This document shows, one piece after another, positions 19,946 through 33,151 of a DNA stretch of 33,151 nucleotides. The DNA is from Treponema sp. (GTDB lineage: Bacteria; Spirochaetota; Spirochaetia; Treponematales; Breznakiellaceae): the NCBI GenBank assembly GCA_003245635.1, contig QKCO01000172.1:1-33151 (forward strand), given 5' to 3'. The notes beneath the pieces were generated by a model. The model searched no databases. It had not been told where the DNA came from and was given only the letters and a program-made list of their open reading frames with translations. Every line of letters begins with the position of its first letter. Position 1 is the first letter of the stretch. The position numbers were made by a program, and so were the translations under genes.

Positions 19946-21688
19946 CTAGAATTCTTCGAATTCGTCGTCGCTCCTGGTCGTGATCGCGGTCGGCGGCGGC
20001 GAAGGGGCGATCCGAGGGACCGGAGCGGCCTTCGCCGGCGCGGGGAGCTTCGCAGCGGGCGCCGACTTGGCGCCCGCAGAGCCGGCGCCGGCATGGGTTC
20101 CCGGCGGCACCCGCCGCGGGGATTCCTTGACGGCGACTTCGTGGCCGGAGTCGGAGCGGACGCCGAGGTTGAAGAAGGAAACGGTTTCGCGCAGGTCGCG
20201 CGATTCGGAAGCCAGCTTCGAGGCCATCGCCGACAGCTGTTCGGAAGCGGACGCGTTCTGCTGTATCACCTGGTCGAGCTGGAGCACCGCCGAATTGATC
20301 TGCGAGGCTCCCGATTCCTGTTCTCGGTTCGACGCGACTATTTCCTGGACCAGATCGTTCGTCTTCCTGATGTCGGGAACCATGCTCGCTATAGTGCGGC
20401 CGGACTCCTCGGCGACGGCCGTGGAACGGCGCGACAGCTCGGTGATTTCGCCGGCCGACTTCTGGCTCCGCTCGGCGAGCTTGCGGACTTCGCCGGCGAC
20501 CACCGCGAAGCCCCGACCGGCTTCCCCGGCGCGGGCGGCCTCGATCGCCGCGTTGAGGGCGAGCAGATTGGTCTGCCGCGCGATTTCCTCGATGACGGCG
20601 ATCTTTCCCGCGATTTCCTTCATCGCGGAAACGGTCTGCGTCACGGCCGCGCCGCCGCGCGCGCCGGCCTCCGCCGTCACCCCGGCGATTCGTCCCGTCT
20701 CCGTCGCGTTCTCCGCGTTCAGCCTGATTCCGGAAACCATCTCCTCCATCGACGACGACAGCTCCTCGACGCCGGCGGCCTGCTTGGAGGCGCCCTCGCT
20801 GACCGTCTGGGCCGCTCCGGAAACCTGAGCGGCTTCGTCGTTGATGCTGGCCGCCGCGCCGTCTATGGCGCCGACTATCTCGGACAGCTTCGCGTTCATC
20901 GCGGCCAGGGCGCGCGAAAGCCGGCCGATCTCGTCGGCGCGGCGGGTGAAGGCTTCTCCCATCGTCCCGGAGAGATCGCCTCCGGCGATCCGGTCCGCGA
21001 AGCGCACCGCGCCGACCAAGCCGTCGCGGATGCTGCGGGAAAGAAGGAAGGCGACCACGAAGGCGACGCCGACGGTCAGCAGGGAAAAGACGAGAAGCAT
21101 GACTACGGAACCTCGGAACGACATGTCCGCTTCGGCCGCCTGCTCGGAAGCCTTCTTCAGCGTGAGCTCCTCGAGCTGGTTGATGAATTCGCGCATGGTC
21201 TCGAAGCCGCGAGAGGCTTCTCCGAACGATAAGGCGGCCGCTTCATCGCGTGCGGCCGGCGTTCCGGCCGAGAGCAGGTCCAGGACGCGGCGAGACGACT
21301 TCTCCCACGACGCGCGGGCCGCTCGGTAGGAATCGTAGAAGGCCCGTTCGTCCGATCCCGCATTCAGCGCGATGAATTTGTCGATGCGTTCCGTAGACTG
21401 CCCGGCGTTCTCGTCGTAGTCCTTGCGCAGGGCCACCGCCCGGGGATCCCCGGCGCTCAAGGTCAGCAGGGAACGCTCGGAGACGAGAAGCTGCTGCAGA
21501 TCCCGGTCCGACTGATCCAGATAGTCGATGGAAGGAAGCTTGACGCCGAATATATCGTCGAGCTTCCTCATCAAATCCGCCATATTCAGATAGCCGATGC
21601 ACGCGATCGCGACCATGAACACAATCATGACCGCGTATCCGATGGAAAGCTTCATTCCAATAGAAAAACCGGAACTCTTTGATTGCAT
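19946..21688 (-). CDS. Methyl-accepting chemotaxis protein
   Basis: I use ATG 21688 (580 residues), with AGAGG 6 bases upstream, over a GTG 15 bases earlier. The layout is a first membrane helix (about 14-34), a periplasmic four-helix-bundle-like sensor (about 35-193), a second membrane helix (about 194-216), a HAMP domain, and a long cytoplasmic helical hairpin. Its conserved tip, [32 protein letters not shown], binds CheA and CheW. After the signalling helices comes a Pro/Ala-rich linker of about 50 residues and an acidic-aromatic tail, DDEFEEF. This may serve as a tether, but it is not the canonical CheR pentapeptide. TATACT lies upstream as a likely -10. The ligand is unknown. No other chemotaxis gene is in the window. 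Confidence 0.94.
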
Positions 21689-21774
21689 AGTTGACCTCTG
21701 CACTGAAGTATACAGCAGATTACCGATCGCTGCAGACCTTTTCGCCCCGGAGCCGACGCGTTATTATTGCCGGT

Positions 21775-23370
21775 ATGAAGTTCCGATCCGTCCTGACGGC
21801 GATGCTCCTCTGCATCCGGGCCGCATTCTTCCTTTCAGCGGAGGAGGCGATGCCTGCCGACCGCATCTTCGAAAGCGAAGGCGACGGACTCGAGATCCGC
21901 AGCGATCCGAGCGGCGCGGACGCCTACGTGAACGACGTGCTGAGGGGAACGACGCCGCTCGTGCTCGCGGACCTGATACCCGGACCGCATCGGATCCGCA
22001 TCGAAAAGGACGGATACGGAACTCGGGAAGCCGTAGCCGTGATTCCGAAGGGCAAGCGGCTCTCGGTCTACCTGGAACTCGTCGAGGCGAAGGGCTTGCT
22101 GAACGTGGAAGCGGCGCCGGCGGTGCCGGGCGGACTGCGCTTCATCCCCGAAATCTTCATCGACGGGGAGCGGGCTTTCCTCGGCGAGAACGAAGTCGGC
22201 GCGGGGCTGCACTCGGTGCGCGTCAGGGCTTTCGGCTTCGAAGAGGAAACCCGCGCCGCGTTCGCGGCGGCGGGGGAACGGGAAACGGTTTCTTTCCGGC
22301 TGAGGACGGCAGCTTTCCGCGTCGGGAAGCTCAGCGCGAGCCGCTTCCGCTTCAATCCGCGGGACCCGGGCAAGCTGGGATCCGCCATCTTCGGATTCGC
22401 CGTCTCGGCGCCGGGCAGCGCGCGGGTCGCGGTTCGGAACGCCTCCGGGTCGACGGTGTTCGCGGCGGAGCTGCCCGCGTTCGAATCCTGGGACCAGTCG
22501 TTCGAATGGACGGGAACCGACGGAAACGATATCCCTCTTCCCGACGGAGAGTACCTGATCGAAGTGCGCGCACGGGCCGCGGACGGACGGAGCGAAACCG
22601 AAGGCAGCGTGCGCGTGCGTATCGATTCGAGCATACGGATACGGCCCGCGACGGTCTCGGGAGGCGACGCGGGCCTCTTCTTCGCCCCGCAGGCGGAGTT
22701 GTTGCCGGCAGGGGCTTTCCAGATCGAGCTGGCCGCCGTTTTCGGCAAACCGTACGGCGCGGATGCCGAATTCGGCGCGCCGCCGGCGGCGCTGGGCTTC
22801 CGGTATTCGCCGTTCGATAGGTGGGAAGCGGCTGCCGCAGCCGAACTTGCAGCGGAAGGCGCGGACGCGGCGCGGCTTTCCGCCGGGCTTTCCCTGAAGA
22901 CCGCGCTGGGCCGGCCCCGGGAGAACGGCAGAATCGCCCTGGCGGCGGCCGTCCGCTGGCGCTATGCCGAACGCGGAGACGTCTCGCCGTTCGGCGCCGG
23001 CCCCGTGCTCGAACTGTTGATGCCCGCGCAGCTGACCCTCGCCCGCTTCTCCGGCGCCGAGCTTTCGGCCCTGCTTGCCCCCTCGCTCTGCTGGGAGGGA
23101 GCCGAAGGCGTTCCGGAAACGGCCCTACCCTTCCCGGCCGCGAGCGGAGGGCTCGCCTACCAGGCGAAAATCGTCACGGCGGGTCTTTCAGCCCGCGTCG
23201 AGGCGAAAACCGAGGAGAGCGGCTTCTCCGCGGGCCCCGCGCTGATCGCCGCGGAGCTGCGATTCTTCCCGCCTCCCTCGATATTCGTCTTCAGCACGAT
23301 GCTCGGCGCATGGATCGATGCCCGTCTTTCGGGCTTCTTCGCGGGCGCCGGAATGGGAATAGTCTATTGA
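21775..23370 (+). CDS. Exported PEGA / FlgD-like / beta-barrel protein
   Basis: The ATG at 21775 gives 531 residues with a signal peptide (about 1-22, ending FFLSAEEA). A PEGA domain follows (about 35-100: LEIRSDPSGADAYVNDVLRGTTPLVLADLIPGPHRIRIEKDGYG). A second, weaker PEGA-like repeat covers about 105-175 (FIDGERAFLGENEVGAGLHSVRVRAFGF). Residues about 190-300 resemble the FlgD-type Ig domain, with FEWTGTDGNDIPLPDGEYLIEVRARA. The C-terminal 220 residues look like an outer-membrane barrel, with alternating residues and many Gly and Ala, ending GAGMGIVY. The usual reading is a surface protein with peptidoglycan-facing domains. There is no Shine-Dalgarno. TATTAT at 21762-21767 lies 7 bases before the ATG, so the mRNA may be leaderless. 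It diverges from the MCP gene. Confidence 0.8.
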   Translation: MKFRSVLTAMLLCIRAAFFLSAEEAMPADRIFESEGDGLEIRSDPSGADAYVNDVLRGTTPLVLADLIPGPHRIRIEKDGYGTREAVAVIPKGKRLSVYLELVEAKGLLNVEAAPAVPGGLRFIPEIFIDGERAFLGENEVGAGLHSVRVRAFGFEEETRAAFAAAGERETVSFRLRTAAFRVGKLSASRFRFNPRDPGKLGSAIFGFAVSAPGSARVAVRNASGSTVFAAELPAFESWDQSFEWTGTDGNDIPLPDGEYLIEVRARAADGRSETEGSVRVRIDSSIRIRPATVSGGDAGLFFAPQAELLPAGAFQIELAAVFGKPYGADAEFGAPPAALGFRYSPFDRWEAAAAAELAAEGADAARLSAGLSLKTALGRPRENGRIALAAAVRWRYAERGDVSPFGAGPVLELLMPAQLTLARFSGAELSALLAPSLCWEGAEGVPETALPFPAASGGLAYQAKIVTAGLSARVEAKTEESGFSAGPALIAAELRFFPPPSIFVFSTMLGAWIDARLSGFFAGAGMGIVY

Positions 23371-23395
23371 CCGCTGTTGTGACTTCGGATATATT
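23367..23395 (+). promoter_or_regulatory. Sigma-70 promoter of the DUF134-NifX gene
   Basis: TTGACC (23367-23372) and TATATT (23390-23395) with a 17-base spacer are identical to the hexamers and spacing of the PilZ promoter. The -35 box overlaps the stop codon of the PEGA gene. The predicted start (about 23402) falls inside the palindrome that follows. Confidence 0.75.
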
Positions 23396-23396
23396 C

Positions 23397-23418
23397 ATAT
23401 TGGTCATATGACCAATAT
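23397..23418. promoter_or_regulatory. Perfect 22-base palindrome, probable operator
   Basis: The half-site ATATTGGTCAT is followed directly by its exact reverse complement. The palindrome covers the predicted transcription start of the DUF134-NifX gene and ends 17 bases before its ATG. A dimeric repressor bound here would block initiation. The core TTGGT...ACCAA is different from the Fur-like site at the ferritin gene. The regulator is unknown; the DUF134 helix-turn-helix protein itself is one candidate. Confidence 0.7.
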
Positions 23419-23435
23419 CCCACAAGGGAGGCGAT

Positions 23436-24104
23436 ATGCCCCGCCCCGTGATGGACCGCCGCGTAAGCGGCAGGCCAGCTTCTACCCTGTTCAAGCCGGC
23501 AGGCATCCCTGCGATGGAAATACCGGAACTCGTCCTCACGCTCGACGAGTTCGAGGCTTTGCGGCTTGCCGACTATGACGGCCTGTACCAGGAGGCGGCC
23601 GCGATGCGCATGGGCGTCTCGCGGCAAACCTTCGGCCGGATCGTCGAAAACGCGCGGCGCAAGGTCGCCGATGCGCTGGTGAACGGGAAGGCGCTGCGGG
23701 TCGAAGGAGGAAACGCCGTTCCCGGAAAAGAGGAAACAACCATGAAGATCGCGGTACCGACCAAAGACGGAGCAGTCGACGCCCATTTCGGGCATTGCTC
23801 GCACTATACGATCTATACCGTCGACGGAGGCAGCATCGTCTCCGAGGAGACGCTCGCGTCGCCGGCCGGATGCGGATGCAAGAGCGGCGTCGCGGGCGAT
23901 TTGGCCCGGGCGGGCATCGGAACGATGATCGCCGGAAATATCGGAGGCGGCGCGGTCCGCGTGCTCGGCTCCTTCGGCATCCACGTCGTACGGGGCGCTT
24001 CCGGCTCGGTGAGGACCGCCGCCGAAGCGTTCCTCGCGGGCAAGATCGCCGACACGGGCGCGAACTGCTCGGAGCACGGCGACGACCACGAGTGCGCGCA
24101 CTAA
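23436..24104 (+). CDS. DUF134 helix-turn-helix domain fused to a NifX/NafY-like domain
   Basis: The 222-residue protein joins two domains usually encoded separately. Residues about 1-100 are DUF134 (ELVLTLDEFEALRLADYDGLYQEAAAMRMGVSRQTFGRIVENARRKVADAL), which contains a sigma-region-4-like helix-turn-helix. Residues about 103-210 are a dinitrogenase iron-molybdenum cofactor family domain (MKIAVPTKDGAVDAHFGHCSHYTIY, then CGCKSGVAGDLARAGIGTMIAGNIGGGA). A Cys/His-rich tail, CSEHGDDHECAH, may bind metal. Outside nitrogen fixation such domains accompany iron-sulfur or Mrp-type ATPases. GGGAGG lies 4 bases before the ATG. The promoter overlaps a perfect palindrome, which suggests metal- or redox-dependent control. 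Confidence 0.88.
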   Translation: MPRPVMDRRVSGRPASTLFKPAGIPAMEIPELVLTLDEFEALRLADYDGLYQEAAAMRMGVSRQTFGRIVENARRKVADALVNGKALRVEGGNAVPGKEETTMKIAVPTKDGAVDAHFGHCSHYTIYTVDGGSIVSEETLASPAGCGCKSGVAGDLARAGIGTMIAGNIGGGAVRVLGSFGIHVVRGASGSVRTAAEAFLAGKIADTGANCSEHGDDHECAH

Positions 24105-24129
24105 AGTTCGCGCACTAAAGTGCGCGAAC
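24091..24129 (+). repeat. Overlapping inverted and direct repeats after the DUF134-NifX gene
   Basis: A 10-pair stem (24106-24115 with 24120-24129) closes a TAAA loop, two bases after the stop codon. It overlaps a direct repeat of GCGCACTAAAGT (period 14) and a competing 12-base palindrome (24091-24102). No T run follows, so it is not a standard intrinsic terminator. It may stabilise or process the mRNA between this gene and the next. Confidence 0.55.
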
Positions 24130-24181
24130 CAGCGGGAAGCATCCACTTGCGCTGAATCCCGCTTCGTGGAATAACGGTGGC

Positions 24182-25237
24182 ATGCGCATAGCAATTCGCT
24201 ATTTTTCCGGCACCGGCAACACGATACATGCCTGCGCGATCGCGGCGGACGCGTTCGAACGGTCCGGATGGAGCGTCGACTCGGCCGAACTGCCGTGCGG
24301 CCCCGGAGCGCGGGCCGGAGACGCCGATACCGCCGACCTGCTGCTCGTAGCTTTCCCCATCCACGGATTCGCGCCGCCGCAGCCCGTCGTCCGCTGGCTT
24401 TCGCGCCTGGCCAAGCGGCCCGGACAGCGGGCGGCGGTGCTCGCCGTGGGCGGAGCGACCTTCGTGAAGGGCCGGTACATTCCCGGATGGGGAGCCGACG
24501 CGCCCTTCACCGCCGCCCGCGCGCTGCGGAGAAGGGGCCGCCGGCTCATCGGAGTCTTCGAAGCATCCCTTCCCGAAAATTTCACCCAGGCGTCGAATCC
24601 CCCGACGGAAGCCCAGTGCCGCGGCATCAGGAACCGGAACGATCCCGCCATCCGGGATTTTGCGGAAAAACTCGCCGCTGCCGCGGGAACGGAGTCCGAA
24701 GGCCCCATCCTCGAACGAAACCGCGCCGTCAGGCTGCTTTTCCGTCCCATCGCCGCCCTCTTCAGGCATTTCGGCCGGCCCATCCTTTCCCGCACCTTCA
24801 TCGCCGACGAAAACTGCACCGGCTGCGGTCTCTGCGCGCGCAGCTGTCCCGCGGGTGCGATCCGGCTTGCCGCAGGCCGACCTGTCTGGAGCGTTCGGTG
24901 CATCGAGTGCAACCGGTGCATCAACAGCTGCCCGCGCGCATCGATCGGAACATCCACGCTCGCGCTCGTCCTGCATCTCGCCTTCGCAGGGCTGTCCTTG
25001 GCTGCGGCCCTTTCGGTCCCAATCCCGGACGCGCTTCCCTCCCCGGTTTCCGCGCTCGCGCGCGCGGCGCTCGTTCTCGGCTTGTTCCTGATCCAGCTCT
25101 GGCCCTTCTCGCTTCTCCTGAGGCTCCTATCCCGAAGCGCTAAACTGAGGCGGGCGTTCGAGGCGTCCTTCACCCGGGGCTTCAGACGCTACCGGGCCGA
25201 AGGCTTCTCCCCGAGCGAAGAAGGGCGGATGGCTTGA
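24182..25237 (+). CDS. EFR1-like flavodoxin-ferredoxin protein with C-terminal membrane helices
   Basis: The 351-residue protein starts with a flavodoxin-like fold whose FMN phosphate loop is YFSGTGNT (7-14). It continues to about residue 175. Two [4Fe-4S] clusters follow at about 215-262: CTGCGLCARSCP and CIECNRCINSCP, both complete CxxCxxCxxxCP motifs. The C-terminal part has two likely membrane helices (about 262-285 and 292-315) and a basic tail. Family members pass electrons between flavin and ferredoxin partners. The membrane part would anchor it to the inner face of the cytoplasmic membrane. The start is ATG 24182, 77 bases after the DUF134-NifX stop, and the two may be co-transcribed. 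The partner is unknown. Confidence 0.86.
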   Translation: MRIAIRYFSGTGNTIHACAIAADAFERSGWSVDSAELPCGPGARAGDADTADLLLVAFPIHGFAPPQPVVRWLSRLAKRPGQRAAVLAVGGATFVKGRYIPGWGADAPFTAARALRRRGRRLIGVFEASLPENFTQASNPPTEAQCRGIRNRNDPAIRDFAEKLAAAAGTESEGPILERNRAVRLLFRPIAALFRHFGRPILSRTFIADENCTGCGLCARSCPAGAIRLAAGRPVWSVRCIECNRCINSCPRASIGTSTLALVLHLAFAGLSLAAALSVPIPDALPSPVSALARAALVLGLFLIQLWPFSLLLRLLSRSAKLRRAFEASFTRGFRRYRAEGFSPSEEGRMA

Positions 25238-25262
25238 CCTTTATTCGAAACGGATGCATGAT
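25234..25262 (+). promoter_or_regulatory. Probable promoter of the aminotransferase leader transcript
   Basis: TTGACC (25234-25239, overlapping the stop of the previous gene) and CATGAT (25257-25262, 4 of 6 consensus) are 17 bases apart. Transcription would start near 25269, exactly at the ATG of the leader peptide, which has no Shine-Dalgarno. The -10 match is only moderate. Confidence 0.5.
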
Positions 25263-25268
25263 GCTTCC

Positions 25269-25343
25269 ATGCGAATCGAACTGACGCATCTTCAGTCTTT
25301 CAGTCTCGCCGCGGCGGCCGCTATCCGGGAGGATCGCGACTAG
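25269..25343 (+). CDS. Putative Ala-rich leader peptide (24 residues)
   Basis: A 24-codon frame starts at ATG 25269 and ends at TAG 25341-25343. It contains five consecutive alanine codons (25308-25322: GCC GCG GCG GCC GCT), preceded by Leu, and ends in Arg, Glu, Asp, Arg, Asp. Its last codons (25328-25338) are the strand that would form the antiterminator. A frame of this size could arise by chance. Its position, just after a promoter, with control codons upstream of an antiterminator and terminator, and before an alanine-type aminotransferase gene, is what supports it. It would be a regulatory peptide translated only in cis. Confidence 0.65.
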   Translation: MRIELTHLQSFSLAAAAAIREDRD

Positions 25344-25403
25344 CCGTTCAACATACAGAACGACCGGCCGCGATCCTCCGAACGGGGATCGCGGCTTTTT
25401 TTT
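25328..25403 (+). terminator. Putative transcription attenuator (antiterminator and terminator)
   Basis: The terminator is a 12-pair stem (25367-25378 with 25384-25395, one G-U pair) with a 5-base loop and eight T (25396-25403). The segment 25328-25338 (GGAGGATCGCG) is perfectly complementary over 11 bases to 25369-25379, which is the left arm of the terminator, so the two structures exclude each other. A ribosome finishing the leader peptide covers 25328-25338 and allows termination. A ribosome stalled on the Ala codons leaves it free to form the antiterminator. This is classical amino-acid attenuation logic. It could also serve as a plain terminator for the preceding gene. Confidence 0.7.
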
Positions 25404-25473
25404 CGTCCGAACGGCGAAAGAACCGAAGCGGGCCCCGACGGATCGACCAGCCGACCGGACGGAAGGAGCTCGC

Positions 25474-26796
25474 ATGAGAAGGGACATCGTCCACCCGGGA
25501 GCCGACAGGCTCAAGTACGAAATCCGCGAAATCGTCGCCTTCGCCAATGAACTGGGCAGGTGGAACATCCCCATAACCTGGGAGAACATCGGCGATCCGG
25601 TCAAGAAGGGCGAAATCATCGCCCCCTGGATCAAGGATATCGTCGCGCGGAAAGCCGCCGAAGACCTCTCCTACGCGTACACCGAAACCGAAGGCGCCCG
25701 GGCCGCCCGCGACTTCATAGCCGCCGGGGTGAACGCGCGCGACGATTCGGCGCACCGCGGCGCGAAGATCGACTCTAGGGATATCCTGTTCTTCAACGGA
25801 CTGGGGGACGCGGTGGCGAAGGTGTTCGGCTTCCTCAGGAGGGAAGCGCGGGTGCTCGGCCCTTCGCCCGCCTACTCCACCCTATCGTCCGCCGAAGCGG
25901 CGCACTCGGGTTACGAACACCTGACCTACCGGCTCGATCCCGAGCGCAACTGGATGCCCGACATGGAAGATGTCGAGCTCAAGGTCAAGTACAACGACTC
26001 GGTGGCCGGCATACTGCTGATCAACCCCGACAATCCGACCGGCGCGGTGTACCCCGAGGAGACGCTGCTCGAATTCGTGCGGATCGCGAAGACCTACGGC
26101 CTCTTCATCGTCTGCGACGAGACCTATGCGAACATCGTCTACGGCGGGGCGAAGACGGCCGCGCTTTCGCAGGTGATCGACGGGGTGCCGGGGATCGCGC
26201 TGCGCTCGCTTTCCAAGGAAGTTCCCTGGCCGGGCGCGCGCTGCGGCTGGGCCGAAGTGTACAACCGAAAAGCCGACGCGCGCTTCGACGCGTACGTCCG
26301 GAGCCTCCTGGACGCCAAGCGACTGGAAGTCTGCTCGACGAGCCTGCCCCAGCTCTGCATCCCCGACATCATGGGCGACCCGCGCTACCCGTCCCACCTG
26401 GTGCGCCGGGCGGCGATGTTCGAGAAGCGGGCCGAGGAAGCCGCCGCCGCGTTCGACGGGATCGAGGGAGTCACCGTGGTGAAGCCGCGAGGAGCCCTCT
26501 ACGCGTCGGCGGTCTTCGACGGAGAGCGGCTAGCGAAGGCCGACGCCGACGGCAGGGAGCTGCCGATCGGCGTCGCGGAATTGGCGCGATTCATCGATGA
26601 AAAAACGAAAGACGTCGCCGCCGACAAGCGCTTCGTCTACAAGCTGCTCGCGTCCACCGGCATCTGCGTGGTGCCGCTCTCCGGCTTCATGAGCGACCTG
26701 CCGGGATTCCGCTTCACGCTGCTCGAGAACGACGACGAGAAGCGGGCTTGGATCTACCGGACGATCGCCGAAGCGGCGGGATCGTACGTAAAATGA
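25474..26796 (+). CDS. AlaT-like class I/II aminotransferase
   Basis: The 440-residue PLP enzyme has the class I/II layout. The conserved motifs are ENIGDP at 37-42, NPDNPTG at 184-190, DETYANIVYGG at 215-225 (Asp215 pairs with the PLP nitrogen), Lys248 in SLSK as the PLP-binding lysine, Arg256 in GARCGW, and KPRGALYASAVF. The NPDNPTGAVY and VVKPRGALY blocks resemble AlaT/AlaA-type glutamate-pyruvate transaminases, but this is a reading by eye and the substrate is uncertain. GGAAGGAG precedes the ATG at 25474. The gene is downstream of a putative attenuator with an Ala-rich leader peptide, which fits a role in alanine synthesis. It ends 64 bases before a convergent gene. Confidence 0.82.
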   Translation: MRRDIVHPGADRLKYEIREIVAFANELGRWNIPITWENIGDPVKKGEIIAPWIKDIVARKAAEDLSYAYTETEGARAARDFIAAGVNARDDSAHRGAKIDSRDILFFNGLGDAVAKVFGFLRREARVLGPSPAYSTLSSAEAAHSGYEHLTYRLDPERNWMPDMEDVELKVKYNDSVAGILLINPDNPTGAVYPEETLLEFVRIAKTYGLFIVCDETYANIVYGGAKTAALSQVIDGVPGIALRSLSKEVPWPGARCGWAEVYNRKADARFDAYVRSLLDAKRLEVCSTSLPQLCIPDIMGDPRYPSHLVRRAAMFEKRAEEAAAAFDGIEGVTVVKPRGALYASAVFDGERLAKADADGRELPIGVAELARFIDEKTKDVAADKRFVYKLLASTGICVVPLSGFMSDLPGFRFTLLENDDEKRAWIYRTIAEAAGSYVK

Positions 26797-26835
26797 AAAG
26801 AGCCCGTCCGGAGGATGGACGATCCTCGGGCGGGC
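26797..26835 (-). terminator. Intrinsic terminator of the small barrel gene
   Basis: A stem of about 14 pairs (26802-26816 with 26822-26835, one bulge and one G-U) closes the loop GGACG. Read on the minus strand, it is followed by CTCTTTTCATTTT, a fair T-rich tail. On the plus strand the following bases are not T-rich, so it mainly serves the minus-strand gene. Confidence 0.75.
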
Positions 26836-26859
26836 CCGTTCGATCGGCGCGGCGGGCGG

Positions 26860-27390
26860 CTACAGCTTGAGCGCGAATTTCGCGCCGAAATAATAGAGGA
26901 AGACGATGGCGTTGCTCTCTTTCGGCAGCATGACGCCGACGGCGCCGCCCCCGAGGCGGAACACTTTGCCGAGTTTGAACCAGGCGGAAAGGTCCGGGAT
27001 AAGCACCGCGCCGGTCTGAAGGTCGCTGGCGAGGCCGAAGATGCCGAAAACGCCGCCGCCGAGCTGGCCGGCGACCACGAACCTCCCGAGATCGATTTCG
27101 GCGAACGCGTTCGGCCACCATACGGATTCGACCAGCGCGGTGAACACGCGCAGACCGACGCCGAGGCGGACCGGTCCGGCTTCGCCGAAATAATAGGCTC
27201 CCGCCTCGGGAAGCGGGATGATGTACTGGGAAAAGAACGCGGTCGCGTCGGAGAAGCTCGTTCCTTGACCGTCGACCGAAGCTCCCATGCCCCGCGGAAC
27301 ATCGAAACCGATGTCTATGCGCCAATCTGCGAACGCGGGCGCGGCCGTAGCGGCGAGGAGCAGCAACGATAAAAATGCGGCTCGTTTCAT
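26860..27390 (-). CDS. Small outer-membrane barrel-like protein
   Basis: The 176-residue product has a signal peptide (about 1-21: KRAAFLSLLLLAATAAPAFA, then cleavage before DW). The mature part has strands of alternating hydrophobic and polar residues with frequent Gly and aromatic residues: WRIDIGFDVPRGMG, AGPVRLGVGLRVFTALVE, AFAEIDLGRFVVAGQLGGGVFGIFG, RLGGGAVGVMLPK, FLYYFGAKFALKL. This pattern suggests an eight-stranded barrel. The last residue is Leu, so the C-terminal signal is not perfect. AGGAGG precedes the ATG at 27390 by 7 bases, with TATATT as a probable -10. The gene diverges from pfp. Its function is unknown. Confidence 0.78.
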   Translation of the reverse strand: MKRAAFLSLLLLAATAAPAFADWRIDIGFDVPRGMGASVDGQGTSFSDATAFFSQYIIPLPEAGAYYFGEAGPVRLGVGLRVFTALVESVWWPNAFAEIDLGRFVVAGQLGGGVFGIFGLASDLQTGAVLIPDLSAWFKLGKVFRLGGGAVGVMLPKESNAIVFLYYFGAKFALKL

Positions 27391-27438
27391 AGCGTGGCCT
27401 CCTATTCACCCGTACCCAATATATCCCGTTCTTGCATC

Positions 27439-27482
27439 GATAGCGGCGTTTCAGCTATCATCAATTGGTTTTCACCTATAAT
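27439..27482 (+). promoter_or_regulatory. pfp -10 element with a nearby inverted repeat
   Basis: TATAAT at 27477-27482 is a perfect -10 box, although no good -35 lies 16-18 bases upstream. The mRNA would start near 27489, on or next to AAGGAG (27488-27493). A short inverted repeat GATAGC (27439-27444) / GCTATC (27454-27459) with a 9-base gap covers the -35 region and may be an activator site. This part is weak. Confidence 0.45.
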
Positions 27483-27499
27483 CAGCCAAGGAGCACGCC

Positions 27500-29161
27500 A
27501 TGGAGATATCCGCCCTGCAGAAGGCCCGCTACGCTTATGAGCCCAAGCTTCCCGCCGTCCTCACCGCCCCGGTCGAGGAGATCGCGGTGAAGTTCGGCGC
27601 GGCGACCGAATCGATCGCCGACCAGAAGGAACTGAAGGCGCTTTTCAAGAACACGTACGGCAAGCCCGTCGCGAAGTTCGCCGCCGGCAAGAACGAGAAC
27701 GCCGGCAAGAAGCTCATCGTCGGCGTCATCCTCTCCGGCGGTCAGGCGCCCGGCGGCCACAACGTCATCGCGGGCATCTTCGACGGCCTCAAGAAGGGCA
27801 ACAAGGCTTCCAAGCTCCTCGGCTTCCTGGGCGGCCCCTCGGGACTGGTCGAGAACAAGACGGTCGAGATCACCGCGAAGATGATGAACGAATACCGCAA
27901 CACCGGCGGCTTCGACATGATCGGCTCCGGCCGCACCAAGATCGAGACGCCCGAGCAGTTCGCGGCGTCCCTGGCGACCGCCAAGGCGCTCAAGCTCGAC
28001 GCCGTGGTCGTCATCGGCGGCGACGACTCCAACACGAACGCCGCGCTCCTGGCCGAGTACTTCATCGAGCAGAAGGCTACGACCCAGGTCATCGGCTGCC
28101 CGAAGACCATCGACGGAGACCTCAAGAACGAGCACATCGAGACCTCCTTCGGCTTCGACACCGCCTGCAAGACCTACAGCGAGCTGATCGGCAACATCGA
28201 GCGCGACGCGAACAGCGCCAAGAAGTACTGGCACTTCATCAAGCTCATGGGCCGCTCCGCCAGCCACATCACCCTTGAATGCGGTCTCCAGACCCAGCCG
28301 AACATCACCCTGGTGTCCGAGGAGGTCGAGGCGAAGAAGCAGTCCCTGGCGACCATCGTCGACCAGATCTGCGACTCGGTCTGCAAGCGCGCCGACGCGG
28401 GCCTGAACTTCGGCGTCGTCCTCATCCCCGAGGGCCTGGTCGAATTCGTCCCCGAGATGAAGAAGCTCATCGCCGAGCTCAACGACCTGATGGCCAAGGA
28501 AGCGGACGAGTTCGCCGGACTCAAGGGCTTCGAAGCCCAGGCCGAATGGCTGGCGAAAAAGCTCTCCAAGGGTTCCGCCGCGACCTTCGCGAGCCTCCCG
28601 GCCGAAATCGCCAAGCAGCTCCTGATGGACCGCGACCCCCACGGCAACGTGCAGGTGTCCCGCATCGAGACCGAGAAGCTCCTGATGGGCATGGTCGAAG
28701 CGCGCCTTTCGGTCCTCAAGAAGAAGGGCACCTACAAGGGCAAGTTCAGCTCGCTCGGCCACTTCTTCGGCTACGAAGGCCGCTGCGCCTTCCCCTCCAA
28801 CTTCGACGCCGACTACTGCTACGCGCTCGGCTTCTCCGCCTTCATGCTGATCAACGCGGGCCTCACCGGCTACCTGTCGAGCGTGAAGAACCTGACCGCG
28901 CCCGCTGCCAAGTGGATCGCCGGCGGCGTGCCGCTCACCATGATGATGAACATGGAGCAGCGCCACGGCTCGAAGAAGCCGGTCATCCGCAAGGCGCTGG
29001 TGGAGCTCGAGGGCAAGCCCTTCAAGACCTTCGAGGCCAAGCGCGCCGAATGGGCCGAGAAGACCTGCTTCCTCTTCCCCGGCGCCATCCAGTACTACGG
29101 CCCTGCCGAAGTCTGCGACCAGCCGACCAAGACCCTCAAGCTGGAACACAATAAGAAATAA
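27500..29161 (+). CDS. pfp: Pyrophosphate-dependent 6-phosphofructokinase, long type
   Basis: The enzyme interconverts fructose 6-phosphate and fructose 1,6-bisphosphate with PPi instead of ATP, at the entry of glycolysis. The 553-residue length matches the long PFP of spirochaetes, plants and chlamydiae. [13 protein letters not shown] is at 80-92, GGDDSNTNA at 173-181 and [10 protein letters not shown] at 201-210. The second Asp of GGDD and the Lys of PKT are the known marks of PPi use. The substrate loop [19 protein letters not shown] follows. The gene uses a very biased set of C/G-ending codons, as highly expressed genes do. AAGGAG lies 6 bases before the ATG. It is followed by a terminator-like hairpin. 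Confidence 0.96.
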
Positions 29162-29174
29162 GACTGCCAAGGAA

Positions 29175-29213
29175 GCGGGCGGATGGCGGACTAAGCCTTC
29201 GCCATCCGTCCGC
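29175..29213 (+). terminator. Terminator-like hairpin after pfp
   Basis: A 14-pair stem (29175-29188 with 29200-29213, one G-U) closes an 11-base loop. The following bases CGTTCATCG contain no T run, so it may act as an mRNA 3'-end stabiliser or be a weak terminator. Confidence 0.6.
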
Positions 29214-29252
29214 CGTTCATCGTATCGATGACAGGCGATTATTAAACAACGA

Positions 29253-29311
29253 AAACCTGCCACCGCAAAACCTAGGGAAAAACGCCTAAACGGCGTTGCT
29301 CGAACAGGTTT
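29253..29311 (+). promoter_or_regulatory. Possible structured leader before the sensor kinase gene
   Basis: The outer stem pairs AAACCTG (29253-29259) with CAGGTTT (29305-29311). Inside, AACGCC (29281-29286) pairs with GGCGTT (29292-29297) around a TAAAC loop. A second copy of AAAACCT (29268-29274) could compete for the same right arm, which would give a switch between two folds. I could not match it to a known riboswitch class. The region from 29214 to 29347 holds no gene and no clear promoter. Confidence 0.35.
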
Positions 29312-29347
29312 GCTTCAGACGGCCCGCAAGGCCTCGGATCGAGTCAT

Positions 29348-33151
<3,804 letters not shown>

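Follow-up and report, generated by a model that had tools for sequence, protein, structure and literature searches.

The leader region upstream of the aminotransferase gene in the window (the whole stretch of 33,151 nucleotides of Treponema sp. DNA analysed here) very probably works as a ribosome-mediated transcription attenuator whose control codons are those of alanine. The following paragraphs document its elements and how they are spaced, and show that they recur and that their base pairings are mutually exclusive. The features of the window are:

25234–25262, forward strand: predicted promoter, with −35 box TTGACC (25234–25239) and −10 box CATGAT (25257–25262)
25269–25343, forward strand: leader peptide ORF of 24 residues, with ATG at 25269 and TAG at 25341–25343, reading MRIELTHLQSFSLAAAAAIREDRD
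25308–25322, forward strand: Ala control codons, five in a row (GCC GCG GCG GCC GCT)
25317–25340, forward strand: hairpin 1:2, in which 25318–25326 (GCCGCTATCC) pairs with 25331–25339 (GGATCGCGG)
25328–25338, forward strand: region 2, the 5′ arm of the antiterminator (GGAGGATCGCG), within the last leader codons
25366–25379, forward strand: region 3, shared between the antiterminator (as 3′ arm) and the terminator (as 5′ arm), in which 25369–25379 is CGCGATCCTCC
25366–25403, forward strand: intrinsic terminator 3:4, with 13 pairs, a loop of 5 and then eight T
25474–26796, forward strand: the regulated gene, a class I aminotransferase PRK06855 (NF005334), predicted to be an alanine transaminase

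A preliminary description of this region, made from the sequence alone, had placed every element it named correctly. Its 24-codon frame with five consecutive Ala codons (25269–25343) was exact to the base, and its 11-base complement is indeed perfect, 25328–25338 being the exact reverse complement of 25369–25379. The terminator was found with its eight T as described, with a stem of 13 pairs instead of the 12 reported; hairpin 1:2 and the promoter had not been reported.

The −10 box ends six bases 5′ of the leader ATG, and the transcription start is predicted at or adjoining position 25269. Since the promoter stands at a fixed distance from the ATG, this ATG itself should be the point where transcription begins. 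No Shine-Dalgarno sequence was seen upstream of the ATG at 25269, and the mRNA from which the window leader would be translated is predicted to be leaderless. The product of the gene upstream (24182–25237) has a ferredoxin-type 4Fe-4S domain, and the −35 box of the attenuator promoter overlaps the stop codon of that gene.

In the terminator, 25366–25378 pairs with 25384–25396 (dG −24.7 kcal/mol) and the eight T occupy 25396–25403. Among 19 terminator-like sites in 20000–33151 it ranked first, with the most pairs and the most G-C pairs. The duplex of region 2 with the terminator arm reached −22.6 kcal/mol, compared to −13.1 in shuffles (p 0.008). Hairpin 1:2, which overlaps Ala codons 4–5, is predicted to act as an anti-antiterminator or pause hairpin, and its addition gives the full trp-type 1:2 / 2:3 / 3:4 topology. 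Folded as a whole, the leader had only a modest z-score (−2.05), and our case therefore rests on comparison rather than on energy.

The downstream gene, preceded by GGAAGGAG, gives a product that scored 606 bits against NCBIfam PRK06855 (curated cut-off 443), a family whose NCBIfam name is merely generic (‘pyridoxal phosphate-dependent aminotransferase’). Among proteins of solved structure, its best sequence match is E. coli AlaA, a glutamate-pyruvate aminotransferase. The N-terminal plug of AlaA places Tyr15, Ile17 and Arg18 near the substrate (PMC4094517); the window enzyme carries Y15, I17 and R18 with identical numbering. Because AlaA is the best solved relative and its plug residues are shared, the window aminotransferase likely makes alanine. 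Judged by sequence (PRK06855, AlaA and plug residues), the gene would thus act in the alanine pathway, and the leader ORF would carry repeated codons for the end product. Elsewhere in the window, a catalase-peroxidase-like gene (30960–33035, reverse strand), with the Pfam peroxidase domain in two stretches, sits in this relative of anaerobic termite-gut spirochaetes.

The leaderless start, the termination in vivo, the stalling and the alanine response that we infer from this layout would proceed as follows. Transcription would begin at the ATG of the leader, whose 24 codons a ribosome would translate behind the polymerase. With alanyl-tRNA plentiful, the ribosome would reach the stop codon and cover region 2 (25328–25338), leaving region 3 free for region 4, and transcription would stop near 25403. 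With alanyl-tRNA short, the ribosome would stall in 25308–25322, masking region 1 and leaving region 2 exposed; region 2 would pair with region 3 before region 4 exists, the terminator would be blocked and the aminotransferase gene would be transcribed.

These two states were examined by folding, with the edge of the ribosome set 12 nt past the first base of the A-site codon and the 3′ arm of the terminator not yet made. In the window, the paired probability of the terminator 5′ arm was 0.92 for a ribosome on Ala codon 1 and 0.34 for one at the stop codon. The same direction was obtained in all 31 leaders of the simple type (31/31): on average, the arm was paired with a probability of 0.85 when the ribosome stood on Ala codon 1, against 0.38 when it had reached the stop. 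When the complete terminator was allowed to form at equilibrium, it prevailed over 2:3 despite a stalled ribosome in many leaders, that of the window included. The switch must therefore be kinetic and decided during RNA synthesis, which is also how other attenuators work. For the ribosome-free RNA of the window the model predicts the antiterminator, and default termination by hairpin 1:2 is thus not supported there.

The window belongs to a family that includes Breznakiella homolactica (class Spirochaetia). In this family, a covariance model (E<1e-16) detected the leader ahead of the orthologue in 14 of 200 genomes, and an exact pattern did so in 13, as a single copy and, at convincing score, only before the aminotransferase gene; weaker matches of the model in other genomes (E 5e-4 to 0.05) were regarded as chance. 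Homologous leaders are present in f1/f2 relatives. The C-terminal part of the peptide is kept (S/I-L-A-A-A-A-A-I-x-E-D-R-x), and codons 2–12 vary freely in sequence and hardly in length. Ala codons 1–3 differ only synonymously, except for one Val in L030, and Ala codons 4–5 are nearly invariant, since they belong to hairpin 1:2. This hairpin is paired in 96% of the cells of alignment A2, the window itself being without one outer pair, and in L030, where the central bases are changed, 1:2 and 2:3 can still form. Terminator 3:4 is kept in every close relative carrying the leader.

The preliminary description had made its reading depend on conservation of the Ala codons and of the 2:3 pairing in relatives, with compensatory changes. 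Both features are kept in the close relatives that carry the leader; the gene stands without a leader in the close relatives L002, L005–L009, L018 and L020. In L005–L007 the leader is lost, judging by the sequence of these loci: a promoter (TTGACA/CATAAA) lies directly 5′ of the aminotransferase coding sequence, much as a clean excision of the attenuator would leave it. As for compensatory changes, base-pair covariation in the close family (alignment A2) showed no excess over shuffles because the columns are almost invariant and most pairs never vary. Covariation was dropped as main proof, the close family being too conserved; in distant loci the Ala codons and the 2:3 pairing are re-formed with unrelated sequence.

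To cover the class and the phylum, we turned to orthologues of the PRK06855 gene, which were found in 42 of 395 genomes of the class and in 45 of 393 in the phylum search. Including the close set, 38 leaders were listed, each preceding an orthologous aminotransferase gene and together spanning 12 families of class Spirochaetia. The recurrence across families supports the trp/his/ilv-type layout claimed in the preliminary description. No Ala leader was seen at orthologues in other classes of the phylum (L086–L107, L113, L118–L122), and the gene is also without a leader at L131, L134, L136, L140, L141, L143, L150 and L151. At five of these (L136, L140, L141, L143 and L151), TTGACC lies immediately 5′ of the aminotransferase ATG, which suggests from sequence that the gene itself is leaderless there.

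All 38 leaders are Ala-rich and nearly all carry runs of 4–8 Ala codons, with all four Ala codons in use across the set. Alanine accounts for 226 leader residues (24%), the second commonest residue for 71, and the first Ala codon lies 30–45 nt after the ATG. In 36 of the 38, TTGAC was found 35–41 nt upstream of the ATG, so that the mRNA is probably leaderless throughout the set. Counted from the first Ala codon, region 2 mostly begins after 18–30 nt, and it spans or adjoins the leader stop. Its complementarity to the terminator 5′ arm exceeded that of dinucleotide shuffles (p<0.05) in 23 of 38 leaders; the combined p-value by Fisher's method, 6e-25, is overstated, as it ignores relatedness and related leaders are not independent. 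Taken overall, the antiterminator and its predicted masking by a ribosome at the stop codon, though not by one at the control codons, were recovered across the set, with weak or unclear signals in L029, L115, L117, L123, L149, L152 and the relay types.

The latter (L108, L130, L132 and L133, of f21, and perhaps L123 and L125 too) have longer leaders with two extra segments, predicted to give two successive exclusive hairpin switches (2:3, 3:4, 4:5 and 5:6) before the aminotransferase gene. In this relay form, stalling would free segment 4 for pairing with 5, and the terminator would be 5:6. Folding supported it only in L132 (0.63 versus 0.00) and L133 (0.69 versus 0.13).

Between families the leader peptides share no sequence but alanine, as seen with MKHTNLSSQHLHLAAAAAAAATMVGPL, MIVRSSDVQILLAAAAAAP, MNTYKALQLNNSAKASVINSLW, MKTQHMSVQHNRKRAAAAAARKSGDCRRL and MENKDFKKIIFTKAAAALSYCGY. 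This bears on the possibility of an arrest peptide, stalled by its own sequence, a ligand or a drug, in which the Ala codons would not gauge charged tRNA-Ala. An identical RNA layout would serve such a peptide, and chloramphenicol is reported to stall ribosomes most after Ala, Ser or Thr codons (PMC12121999). However, residues outside the Ala run are unconserved between families, unlike those of arrest peptides, the Ala codons of L010 and L109 are not even contiguous, and the downstream gene is probably alanine-making rather than a drug resistance gene. We consider an arrest peptide highly unlikely, and stalling at Ala codons for want of alanyl-tRNA remains the preferred reading.

The region might also be a mere terminator or processing site after the ferredoxin-like gene, the Ala-rich ORF being a by-product of G+C-rich repeats that pair into stems. 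A GCGGCCGC-like sequence does participate in hairpin 1:2, and the upstream gene ends at 25237, as such a site would have it. Yet Ala codons 1–3 lie outside the stems and change almost only synonymously, and the A+T-rich loci L010, L109, L129 and L137 retain the Ala codons and the layout with unrelated stems. Nearly every leader moreover has its own promoter at a fixed distance. A census of short ORFs in 0.72 Mb of collected DNA, overlaps included and enriched in these loci, points the same way: it contains 100 different TTGAC-led short ORFs at leader spacing, of which 36 reach 4 or more Ala within 6 codons. Of the latter, 35 are leaders of this aminotransferase, and the one exception had itself been fetched by an Ala-run pattern. 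Ala runs are absent from the other short ORFs of the census. Among the matches listed in a search for such leaders before other genes, those seemingly in frame proved to be the beginnings of long genes: an nadE-like gene in G604/G615, its start judged from the peptide, and a lipoprotein-like gene in G022. A by-product of this kind is even less probable than an arrest peptide, and an attenuator acting on the aminotransferase gene is retained.

A leaderless-looking ATG after TTGAC was thus also observed at other genes, one lipoprotein-like and one nadE-like (loci L186, G604:C1:1564660 and G615:C4:133664). Leaderless mRNAs may be common in these spirochaetes.

An intrinsic terminator lies between the leader ORF and the gene in 37 of 38 leaders, the exception, L127, having a stem without a good T run. 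Translational or Rho-dependent attenuation, by which the leader would govern coupling, or how accessible the aminotransferase start site is, instead of intrinsic termination, and as leader peptides can in general act, is the least probable reading, given the canonical stem and T run in all leaders except one and, in the window, the distance of about 60 nt from the T run to the gene's own Shine-Dalgarno sequence.

The alanine T-box, found in alaS leaders of Firmicutes, senses tRNA-Ala charging and controls termination by binding the tRNA directly. The system proposed here would sense the same charging, and differs in that the T-box binds tRNA without a leader peptide. Rfam, T-box included, gave no match for the element in the window (gathering threshold) or for seven leader loci (E up to 0.05). 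With the trp, his, leu, thr, ilv and pheA attenuators of proteobacteria (PMC1183508), the element shares control codons for the product, the 1:2/2:3/3:4 hairpins, an intrinsic terminator and a biosynthetic gene; it differs by its Ala codons, a predicted leaderless mRNA, a region 2 that usually overlaps the leader stop, and its occurrence in Spirochaetia. The Corynebacterium glutamicum ilvBNC attenuator (PMC11857589) likewise has three hairpins and a leader peptide on a leaderless mRNA, but with branched-chain codons and in actinobacteria. The mycobacterial attenuators with poly-cysteine leaderless short ORFs (Canestrari 2020, cited in PMC13236596), as far as that citation describes them, also combine a run of one control codon with a leaderless mRNA, the codon being that of cysteine. 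At the mycobacterial whiB7 upstream ORF (PMC10727445, PMC13236596), stalling in the leader ORF suppresses a terminator, as proposed here, but what is regulated there is a transcription factor, and the attenuator responds to many antibiotics. According to the papers citing it, WhiB7 has been reported to coordinate the alanine-starvation response (Poulton 2024, cited in PMC10727445 and PMC13236596).

The preliminary description knew of no attenuator with alanine control codons, and we found none in the open-licence literature either, the closest being the leaderless ilvBNC, the poly-cysteine and the whiB7 systems; nor is a leader-peptide attenuator in spirochaetes described in the open-licence literature examined. 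The alanine-codon attenuator is probably new to the literature. We lean, if only slightly, towards the wider view that a so far undescribed, class-wide attenuation by Ala codons controls the alanine transaminase of Spirochaetia through a leaderless leader, with a relay in some lineages that leaves the logic unchanged. Several dozen natural versions, of unrelated sequence and the same geometry, constitute a natural experiment on the spacings that attenuators need, and the leaderless start would make ribosome–polymerase coupling unusually simple to test. The Ala control codons would also assign a function, alanine synthesis, to the aminotransferase family PRK06855.
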